Assembly: GCA_014382365.1 (NCBI GenBank)
Contig: JACNJW010000039.1
Location: forward strand, 1 to 64,000
Length of the DNA: 64,000 nucleotides
Direction of reading: 5' to 3'
DNA from: SAR324 cluster bacterium
GTDB taxonomy: Bacteria; SAR324; NAC60-12
Positions 39,091-41,613 of the stretch are shown piece after piece (within the stretch, counting starts at the first letter, position 1; every line of letters starts with the position of its first letter). Below the pieces are notes generated by a model. It was not told the DNA's origin and did no database searches. It saw only the letters and a list, made by a program, of their open reading frames with translations. A program made the position numbers and the translations under genes.

Positions 39091-39558
39091 ATGGGCGAAA
39101 TCATCAATATATTCATTTCAAAGGAAGCAAATAAGTTGCCTGTGCCTGTGGATTCTGCAGAAACGGTCAAACATCGGGGACTGACCGGTGACAGGTATTA
39201 TCACAAGACCGGAACCTATTCGGATGTTGAGCCTAAAGGGCCGGGAAGGGAACTGACTCTGATTGAACTTGAGGTGCTGGAACAACTTGAATCGGAGCAT
39301 GGTATCATGCTTTCAGGTGCTGAAGCCCGCAGAAACATTGTTACTCAAGGAATACTGCTTAACAAGCTTGTTGGGAAACGCTTCCGAATAGGAGAAGTGA
39401 TCTGTGAAGGCATCCGCTTGTGTCATCCGTGCAAACTATTGGAAAAACTCACAGGAAAGAAAGTATTAGGACCCTTAGTCGACCGAGGAGGTTTGAGGGC
39501 CGATATTTTGACAAATGGTACAATTAGAGTGGGAGATTCGATAATGGTGGTGGACTGA
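39091..39558 (+). CDS. MOSC-domain protein
   Basis: A 155-residue stand-alone MOSC (molybdenum cofactor sulfurase C-terminal) domain protein. Conserved elements are VKHRGLTGDRYYHKTG, ELTLIELEVLEQLE, RRNIVTQGILLN and a Cys-containing RLCHPCKLLEKL (family conserved Cys), ending VDRGGLRADILTNG. MOSC proteins are predicted sulfur-carrier or molybdenum-cofactor-binding factors; the reaction here is unknown. It has no molybdoenzyme neighbour in the window. Confidence 0.85.
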   Translation: MGEIINIFISKEANKLPVPVDSAETVKHRGLTGDRYYHKTGTYSDVEPKGPGRELTLIELEVLEQLESEHGIMLSGAEARRNIVTQGILLNKLVGKRFRIGEVICEGIRLCHPCKLLEKLTGKKVLGPLVDRGGLRADILTNGTIRVGDSIMVVD

Positions 39559-39563
39559 CCTTT

Positions 39564-39612
39564 AAATCGTTCCCATGCTCTGCGTGGGACTGCAACTAAG
39601 ACGCTCTGCGTC
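39564..39612. repeat. REP hairpins upstream of the RAYT gene
   Basis: Two hairpins in a row: TTCCCA (39571-) pairing with TGGGA around TGCTCTGCG, then GACGCTCTGCGTC (TCT loop, perfect 5-bp stem) ending at 39612. The whole is the reverse complement, with small changes, of the 59-bp units downstream of the transposase, so the RAYT gene lies between inverted REPs. Confidence 0.82.
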
Positions 39613-39635
39613 ACAAAAGCAAGCCGGGATATAAA

Positions 39636-40187
39636 ATGGGCCGCAGCCGCTTTACTGTTATCAATGAATCGCCTCATTTTTTAACCTGTACTGTTGTGAA
39701 CTGGATACCACTGTTCAGTGATCCCAACATTGCAAAACTGTTATTGGATTCATTAATGTTTCTCCAAAATCAGCAACGGTTAAAACTGTTTGCTTATGTA
39801 ATCATGGAAAACCATCTTCACTTACTCGCTTCTTCTGCAGAACTCTCCAAAGAAATTGGTAATTTTAAATCATTTACTGCCCGTCAAATTGTGGATTATT
39901 TGGAGGAGAAGAAACATGTATCTCTGCTTAAACAGTTGAACTATTATAAAAGTGAACACAAGAAAAATAGAAATTATCAGGTCTGGCAAGAAGGTTCACA
40001 TCCGGAAATGATATTGAGTGACAAGATGTTTCAGGCAAAGTTGGAATATATACACAATAATCCTGTTAAGAGGGGATATGTTGATCAGCCTGACCATTGG
40101 CGGTATTCGAGTGCAAGAAATTATTTAGGGCTTGAGGGATTGTTGAGTTTAAATGGTTTAGAAGACAGGACGCAGAGCGTCAAGTAG
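39636..40187 (+). CDS. REP-associated tyrosine transposase (RAYT, IS200/IS605-type Y1)
   Basis: A 183-residue HUH-type Y1 transposase. The HUH histidines are His60 and His62 in YVIMENHLHLL, and the catalytic Tyr is about Tyr138 in KLEYIHNNPVKRGYV. The N-terminus SPHFLTCTVVNWIPLF is typical of TnpA-REP. RAYTs are thought to move or spread REP hairpins as single-stranded DNA. REPs in inverted orientation flank the gene on both sides, and its last codons and stop lie inside the first downstream REP unit. All catalytic residues are intact, so it may be active. Confidence 0.92.
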   Translation: MGRSRFTVINESPHFLTCTVVNWIPLFSDPNIAKLLLDSLMFLQNQQRLKLFAYVIMENHLHLLASSAELSKEIGNFKSFTARQIVDYLEEKKHVSLLKQLNYYKSEHKKNRNYQVWQEGSHPEMILSDKMFQAKLEYIHNNPVKRGYVDQPDHWRYSSARNYLGLEGLLSLNGLEDRTQSVK

Positions 40188-40392
40188 GCGTTCCCACGCA
40201 GAGCATGGGGACGATTTGGAGAGTGAGGATGCAGAGCGTCAGTTAGGCGTTCCCACGCAGAGCATGGGAACGATTTGGAGAGTGAGGACGCAGAGCGTCA
40301 GTTAGGCGTTCCCACGCAGAGCATGGGAACGATTTGGAGAGTGAGGACGCAGAGCGTCAGTTAGGCGTTCCCACGCAGAGCATGGGAACGAT
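40169..40392. repeat. REP array: four tandem 59-bp units
   Basis: Units begin at 40169, 40228, 40287 and 40346. Three are complete 59-bp units; the fourth continues only to the shared CGAT before the 33-bp array. Each holds GACGCAGAGCGTC (5-bp stem, AGA loop; the second unit has GATGC) and CGTTCCCACGCAGAGCATGG with its matching TGGGAACG arm (8-bp stem). Differences among copies are one to three bases. The first unit overlaps the end of the RAYT gene. Confidence 0.92.
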
Positions 40393-40591
40393 GAAGCGTG
40401 TAAAAACGCAGAGCATGGGAACGATGAAGCGTGTAAAAACGCAGAGCATGGGAACGATGAAGCGTGTAAAAACGCAGAGCATGGGAACGATGAAGCGTGT
40501 AAAAACGCAGAGCATGGGAACGATGAAGCGTGTAAAAACGCAGAGCATGGGAACGATGAAGCGTGTAAAAACGCAGAGCATGGGAACGATG
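40373..40591. repeat. 33-bp tandem array, about 6.6 copies
   Basis: The period is 33 bp. Starts are at 40373, 40406, 40439, 40472, 40505, 40538 and 40571, the last cut after 21 bp. The unit opens ACGCAGAGCATGGGAACGAT and closes GAAGCGTGTAAAA; all copies appear identical. It reuses the right arm of the REP hairpin but drops its left arm, so each unit keeps only a 4-bp GCGT/ACGC stem. The period is a multiple of three, leaving both strands open; this is a by-product, not a gene. It ends 29 nt before rluD. Confidence 0.95.
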
Positions 40592-40620
40592 TATGTTAAT
40601 AAAAAAACCGAACAACAAAA

Positions 40621-41613
40621 ATGAACTTGCAGCATTGTGTAAAAGAAACTGAATCAGGAATACGCCTGGATCAGTTGCTGACATCCTTGGATGAGATTAT
40701 TTCCCGGACACAGGCCCAGCGGCTGTTGAAATCCGGAAATGTTTTAGTTAACGGAAAGTCCGAACTGGCACCATCGCGGAAAGTTCGTGAAGGACAGGAG
40801 ATATTAGTTACAATTCCACCGCCGGAATCAACTGAAGTTCTACCGGAAAAGGGTAATCTCGATGTTTTATTTGAAGACTCACACTTAATCGTGATCAACA
40901 AAGCCGCAGGTGTTGTTGTGCATCCTTCTGCCGGACATGCTTCCGGAACTTTAGTAAATTATTTACTGGATCATTGTCAGGATCTATCCGGAATCGGCGG
41001 CGTGCTGCGTCCGGGAATAGTTCACCGGATTGACAAGGACACTTCCGGAGTTTTGCTTGTGGCAAAAACTGATGAGGCGCACCAGCATTTGTCCGCACAA
41101 TTTAAGTCGCATTCAGTTAAACGGCAGTATCAAGCCCTGGTTTGGGGTGTTCCGAAAACAAAACACGGAGTTATAGATGCAGCCCTCAGGCGACATCCGG
41201 TACGGCGGAAGGATATCTCAATCATAGAAAATGATGATTCAGCAGAAAATGAAGACGAAAATGAAAAGAAAATGGGCAAATCTGCAGTAACACACTGGCG
41301 TCTTTTACAGGGTTTTGAATTTGCGGCATTGCTGGCTTGCCGTTTGGAGACAGGACGAACACATCAAATCCGAGTGCACCTGACTTCGATTGGACATCCG
41401 CTGATTGGAGATCCGCAATATGGAAAATCTCCCCTAAAAAGGCTTTCACATCTTTCAGCAGAATTGAGTTTGAATCTCAAAAATTTTAAACGCCAGGCTC
41501 TGCATGCGGAAATACTCGGTTTTGAGCATCCTGTTTCCGGAGAGTGGCTGGAATTCAAAGCAGTGTTTCCGGAGGATTTTCGTAACTTACTGACAGCAAT
41601 TCAGCATGATTAG
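40621..41613 (+). CDS. rluD: 23S rRNA pseudouridine synthase RluD-type
   Basis: A 330-residue RluA-family enzyme. An S4 RNA-binding domain occupies about 15-75 (RLDQLLTSLDEIISRTQAQR, VNGKSELAPSRKVREGQ). The catalytic domain has HRIDKDTSGVLLVAKT with Asp140 as nucleophile, RQYQALVWG and TGRTHQIRVHLTSIGHPLIG. RluD makes pseudouridines in helix 69 of 23S rRNA, helping ribosome assembly. The ATG at 40621 has no clear Shine-Dalgarno and follows the 33-bp array by 29 nt. The gene's promoter must therefore lie in or beyond the repeats. It overlaps the nitrilase gene by 8 nt. Confidence 0.92.
   Translation: MNLQHCVKETESGIRLDQLLTSLDEIISRTQAQRLLKSGNVLVNGKSELAPSRKVREGQEILVTIPPPESTEVLPEKGNLDVLFEDSHLIVINKAAGVVVHPSAGHASGTLVNYLLDHCQDLSGIGGVLRPGIVHRIDKDTSGVLLVAKTDEAHQHLSAQFKSHSVKRQYQALVWGVPKTKHGVIDAALRRHPVRRKDISIIENDDSAENEDENEKKMGKSAVTHWRLLQGFEFAALLACRLETGRTHQIRVHLTSIGHPLIGDPQYGKSPLKRLSHLSAELSLNLKNFKRQALHAEILGFEHPVSGEWLEFKAVFPEDFRNLLTAIQHD

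Follow-up and report, generated by a model that had tools for sequence, protein, structure and literature searches.

The window, by which we mean the whole stretch of 64,000 nucleotides analyzed here (on contig C67 of a 3.2-Mb draft genome), carries a RAYT element, or REPtron, whose right end was probably amplified in two steps. In this reading, to which we give a probability of roughly 0.7, head-to-tail copies of a 59-bp end were followed by copies of a 33-bp half unit that would have arisen from the end by deletion and multiplied by slippage or recombination. We propose that the resulting array is a by-product of repeat instability and no new product of transposition. The combination of a RAYT gene, REP brackets and 59-bp and 33-bp arrays had been noted earlier from the letters of the sequence, and the observation proved to be real (Table 1).

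Table 1. Positions of the RAYT element and its right-end arrays within the window.
Feature	Position	Strand	Basis
Left-end large REP hairpin, in opposite orientation to the REPs downstream	39566..39591	-	DNA fold of left end
Left-end small hairpin GACGCTCTGCGTC	39600..39612	.	Sequence and DNA fold
RAYT / TnpA-REP gene	39636..40187	+	183 aa; HUH N59-H60-L61-H62, WQ 117-118, catalytic Tyr138 in YIHNNP
Four 59-bp right-end units (13-nt spacer, small hairpin, foot, large hairpin)	40157..40392	+	TRF, hairpin register
Right-end small hairpin GACGCAGAGCGTC, overlapping the RAYT 3' end	40169..40181	.	Sequence and DNA fold
Right-end large REP hairpin, first copy	40190..40215	+	Hairpin search and DNA fold
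Six identical 33-bp half-REP units (GAAGCGTGTAAAA + ACGCAGAGCATGGGAACGAT)	40393..40590	+	TRF, unit alignment
Short leader separating the array from the pseudouridine synthase gene downstream	40591..40620	.	Sequence, ORFs

A complete RAYT gene bracketed by two-hairpin ends

The gene had been described as complete, and its open reading frame, profile matches and intact motifs agree with this. The encoded protein scores 106.7 bits against the NCBIfam model NF047646 ('REP-associated tyrosine transposase'; cut-off 80) and 23.6 bits against Pfam Y1_Tnp (cut-off 23), and its sole PDB match is 4ER8, a TnpA-REP. It has the HUH motif and the catalytic tyrosine of the IS200/IS605 superfamily, and H60, H62 and Y138 are unchanged across an alignment with relatives (9 sequences). 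The protein is 96% identical to a RAYT of a SAR324 cluster bacterium, which makes it most likely that the genome belongs to this group. RAYTs of this type were found in only 2 of 52 genomes of the phylum; the protein has one match in its own genome, and most relatives likewise have one copy per genome.

Among described groups, the element most resembles the TnpA-Y1 class 2 RAYTs, nearest subclass 2.4 or 2.6, in its HUH/Y1 signature, its NHxH, WQ and YIxNNP motifs and its REP brackets (Quentin et al. 2018, PMC6006769). Members of this class usually occur as one RAYT per genome, in cyanobacteria, Bacteroidetes and scattered phyla (PMC6006769). When motif descriptions rather than subclass profiles are compared, WQ and YIHNNP fit both subclasses, and NHLH fits 2.6 (NH[LIV]H) better than 2.4 (NH[IFV]H, with a long or double-foot REP; group 4 of Bertels); the taxonomic spread of the relatives fits 2.4. 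Unlike the ends described for class 2, those in the window consist of two hairpins with a common core word, and the foot here is often TTAG or ATAG as opposed to GT[AG]G (PMC6006769).

Both ends of the element comprise a small hairpin GACGCAGAGCGTC and a large hairpin GTTCCCACGCAGAGCATGGGAAC, followed by GAT. As originally noted, inverted REP hairpins bracket the gene, with one upstream on the minus strand and four downstream on the plus strand. The left end folds at -10.6 kcal/mol, a value reached by no shuffle. At the right end, the GTAG foot (40184-40187) overlaps the RAYT stop codon, and the word ACGCAGAGC is common to the small and the large hairpin, its two occurrences lying 26 bp apart.

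Two arrays in succession at the right end

The downstream REP hairpins start at 40190, 40249, 40308 and 40367, a spacing of exactly 59 bp (0 expected by chance), and TRF reports periods of 59 bp (3.8 copies at 97%) and 33 bp (6.6 copies at 100%). The passage noted from four 59-bp REP units into 33-bp units was thereby borne out, at the boundaries given in Table 1. All copies had been thought identical, which is true of the 33-bp units but not of the 59-bp units, the first and second of which carry substitutions. A recent expansion is likely, as identical 33-bp copies fit recent growth.

The first 59-bp unit starts within the RAYT reading frame, and its 13-nt spacer TTTAGAAGACAGG is sequence of the RAYT 3' end. 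Each unit of this block keeps both hairpins, including a complete large REP hairpin as in the tandem clusters of the SBW25 type, and the foot reads GTAG in unit 1 and GTTAG in units 2-4; in relatives, it varies as NTAG, one or two bases 5' of the stem. The 33-bp units, in contrast, lack a foot and contain no complete REP hairpin: the left arm is missing, and the weak 4-bp stem that is left is no better than in shuffles (z of -1.1 to -1.2, versus -4.7 for the REP).

Other identities of the array were considered. A CRISPR array was ruled out, as the 13-nt spacers of the 33-bp units are all identical, and a known RNA family was ruled out by the lack of an Rfam match. Open frames cross the array at 40334-40624 (+) and 40357-40635 (-), with the repeats TQSMGTMKRVK and MLCVFTRFIVP, and an annotation pipeline could call them genes. 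A repeat-coding protein is unsupported, since open frames on both strands follow from the 33-bp period.

Origin of the 33-bp unit

The 59-bp unit can be written as 13 + 9 + 17 + 9 + 11 nucleotides, and subtraction of one word and the 17 nt gives 33. It had been suggested that the 33-bp unit drops the left arm of the REP and adds GAAGCGTGTAAAA. The arm is indeed missing, but simple addition does not hold: a 26-bp deletion between the ACGCAGAGC words fits better because 59 - 26 = 33, and GAAGCGTGTAAAA takes the place of another 13-nt spacer. After removal of these 26 bp, the 59-mer agrees with the 33-mer in every one of the 20 positions outside the spacer. The two spacers have only 5/13 positions in common, too few to establish descent of one from the other. 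Capture of a host leader as the source of the 13-nt spacer was rejected; the leader of the downstream gene is A-rich and loosely similar, and offers no convincing match.

Comparable units were found in other genomes. In Oscillatoria PCC 10802, the unit after a 71-bp unit is 44 bp long, and its letters are exactly those of the 71-mer once 27 bp between two AGGCGGAGCCT words are taken out. A congener (G014) holds a relic that has no RAYT gene and sits in the same gap between an aminotransferase and a pseudouridine synthase gene as the window element; it comprises a full REP followed by RAYT-tail sequence, which passes into the first word and from there directly to the large hairpin's right half. 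This fusion (RAYT tail - ACTCAGAGC - ATGGGAA) aligns with a score of 64, against a shuffle maximum of 32. Judged by its letters, the relic preserves the fused unit in the context where it arose, although it and the 33-mer may represent two separate fusions instead of one ancestral event. Another truncated-REP array (29 bp x 2.8) lies beside a REP pair in a further congener (G003).

We propose that the 59-bp right-end unit (RAYT-tail spacer, small hairpin, foot and large hairpin) would first have been duplicated head to tail, possibly seeded by the transposase. Through the word ACGCAGAGC, which both hairpins contain, the 26-bp deletion would then have fused the left half of the small hairpin with the large hairpin's right half, and the 33-bp unit would have reached six identical copies via replication slippage or unequal recombination acting across the 20-bp half-REP. 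Such slippage or unequal recombination at direct repeats would cover both amplifications and the deletion without a transposase; for the 33-bp array, slippage would be the most likely mode of growth.

An active role of the enzyme was weighed against this. The RAYT itself could have made the 33-bp units by nicking single-stranded REP arrays, rejoining them at shifted points and ligating truncated units head to tail; the gene next to the array is intact and its catalytic motifs are complete, and TnpA-REP is able in vitro to cut REP DNA and join it again (PMC8266576). We regard this as unlikely, however, since the fusion points lie inside a direct repeat, as recombination or slippage would give, the half unit has neither foot nor stem, and pattern searches of the genome found no dispersed half units. 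E. coli TnpA-REP acts on single-stranded, folded REPs with a GTAG foot, no change in GTAG was tolerated in SELEX, and a stem bulge is required (PMC8266576). By analogy, the half unit, which is without foot and stem, would probably be no RAYT substrate, neither bound nor moved; the recognition rules applied here stem from other RAYT groups.

Arrays in relatives

Relatives of the RAYT were inspected in genome contigs (n = 60) and among matches from 25 cyanobacterial genomes (n = 26). Most have the two-hairpin layout, often with a common word, and many have REP-derived tandem repeats in their flanks, with units that are whole ends (61, 62, 74 and 86 bp) or half ends (17 to 44 bp). Tandem repeats with a period of at least 18 were observed in 24/111 cases within 500 bp of a RAYT versus 20/295 further away in the same loci (p = 5e-5, Fisher's exact test), an enrichment that is indicative only because the flanks are intergenic and the loci related. 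The window has the longest half-REP array among the loci compared; an automatic count, which misses diverged arms, ranked it first with 6 half-REPs, followed by six other loci with 1 each. The same array with an equal number of diverged copies in distant relatives would have spoken against the original claim; the relatives do not have the same array, and the claim is not refuted.

At a shared cyanobacterial locus, Aphanizomenon FACHB-1287 (L126) has three 61-bp units and a related element (L142, genome G315) has one. The two have common sequence downstream of the element, and the layout of the latter matches that of Dolichospermum FACHB-1091 (L056). REP arrays thus change between close relatives. 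One genome per species was compared, and the window's array, which had been suggested to vary between strains, is a candidate VNTR. Carriage by phages was rejected, as a search of viral contigs found neither the REP nor the array word as an exact copy, and carriage by plasmids was rejected with one distant RAYT relative as the only match.

Comparable arrays in independent assemblies also argue against the quite improbable explanation that the number of 33-bp (perhaps also 59-bp) copies is an artefact, produced by assembler collapse or expansion of a shorter or longer repeat. Perfect identity of the six units, a draft of 71 contigs and an N run between duplicated sequence at a REP site of another congener are compatible with it, but the array lies inside a 264-kb contig and has unique flanks on both sides.

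The chromosomal site

In several congeners (L095, L096, L099, L100 and L102), the pseudouridine synthase gene comes almost immediately after the aminotransferase gene. A sister genome (G012/NORP237) has a RAYT in the same gap. It is accompanied there by a single full right end, a partial duplicate and a left-end copy in inverted orientation; a 33-bp array was not found at this locus. The window element is 93.3% identical to that of the sister, as compared with 77-79% for the flanking genes. Because the RAYT is 83% identical at fourfold sites and its neighbors 43-49% (window 39561-40217 against sister locus L027), the element did not diverge together with its neighbors; either exchange from one species to another or independent insertion at a common site likely accounts for its higher identity.

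Between the aminotransferase gene and the RAYT, the window has a MOSC-domain gene (39091-39558) that is missing from the gap in the congeners examined. In the sister (L027, 1671-1744), a second left-end copy lies downstream of the RAYT and extends almost to the start codon, forming a right-end/left-end composite. In another congener (G011, L094), other DNA, with no aminotransferase gene, lies upstream of the pseudouridine synthase gene, and this may be a spot of repeated gene exchange.

It is very hard to credit that the array serves as a repeated protein-binding site or leader tuning the pseudouridine synthase gene, or as a repeat peptide (33 bp being 11 codons), for although it ends 30 bp upstream of that gene and is open on both strands, a stop-free frame of a 33-bp repeat necessarily stays open, the corresponding gene of congeners is not preceded by such an array, and neither significant secondary structure nor an Rfam match was found.

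Other REPs in the genome

Pattern searches, on which all genome counts of REPs and units rest, located, besides one degenerate palindrome, only two other clear REP sites, both of them inverted pairs; they found no second array of half units. The original claim, against which the absence of any other REP copy would have counted, is therefore not refuted here either. Dispersed cognate REPs in many copies, which are typical but not universal for RAYTs, were not found beyond these two sites; according to Di Nocera et al. 2013 (PMC3733652), REPtrons are also present in species that lack abundant REP families. Both other pairs lie inside 180-bp MITE-like copies (C22:47333-47512, L011; C40:20823-21002, L013) with perfect 19-bp inverted ends GGTAGTGGTTATCTTGTAA, and the REP pair seems to ride in another element. 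The REPs in these copies have the perfect stem GCGTGGG, versus GCATGGG at the RAYT locus.

Discussion

Tandem REP clusters beside RAYTs are already known. Pseudomonas fluorescens SBW25 has highly ordered tandem clusters of REPINs and REPs that include flanking sequence, one beside each RAYT, and a second mechanism by which clusters form was inferred in that study (Bertels and Rainey 2011, PMC3116915). Those clusters consist of whole REPs or REPINs at longer spacing, whereas the window has head-to-tail single right ends and then half-REPs without a REP hairpin. The view that conversion of a REP into a tandem array beside its own transposase is little described must therefore be narrowed: expansion beside a RAYT is published (PMC3116915), but the half-REP step is undescribed in the literature searched. 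The accessible text of Di Nocera et al. 2013 (PMC3733652) reports REPs reiterated in tandem with flanking DNA, as well as double palindromic inverted repeats (TIRs) around some tyrosine transposase genes, and in that text we found no tandem unit derived from a half-REP. The word 'tandem' does not occur in Quentin et al. 2018 (PMC6006769), where tandem arrays are not discussed. Our literature search, which lay mostly outside subscription papers, found no description of half-REP units formed via deletion between two hairpins.

At the sequence level, the two-step reading is supported by the units themselves, their arithmetic, the exact 71-to-44 deletion in Oscillatoria, the relic in the congener and the cyanobacterial difference in copy number. 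The perfect short array and the 3 versus 1 copies at a related locus resemble minisatellites (VNTRs) growing by replication slippage; unlike in an ordinary minisatellite, the seed here, a transposon end, brings direct repeats of its own.

The array finding alone reveals no new function. It does provide a testable path from a transposon end to a minisatellite, comprising a word in two neighboring hairpins, a deletion, a half unit and slippage, and intermediates of this path are seen in different genomes, with Oscillatoria providing the same kind of event in another phylum. A tentative extension, which we would not yet favor, is that the two-hairpin ends of this RAYT clade, with their shared core word, could act as a built-in deletion switch, time and again converting ends recognized by the transposase into half-REPs that escape it and grow as minisatellites, by a general route across phyla. 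The path predicts that RAYT genes with two-hairpin ends should have variable arrays at their 3' ends.
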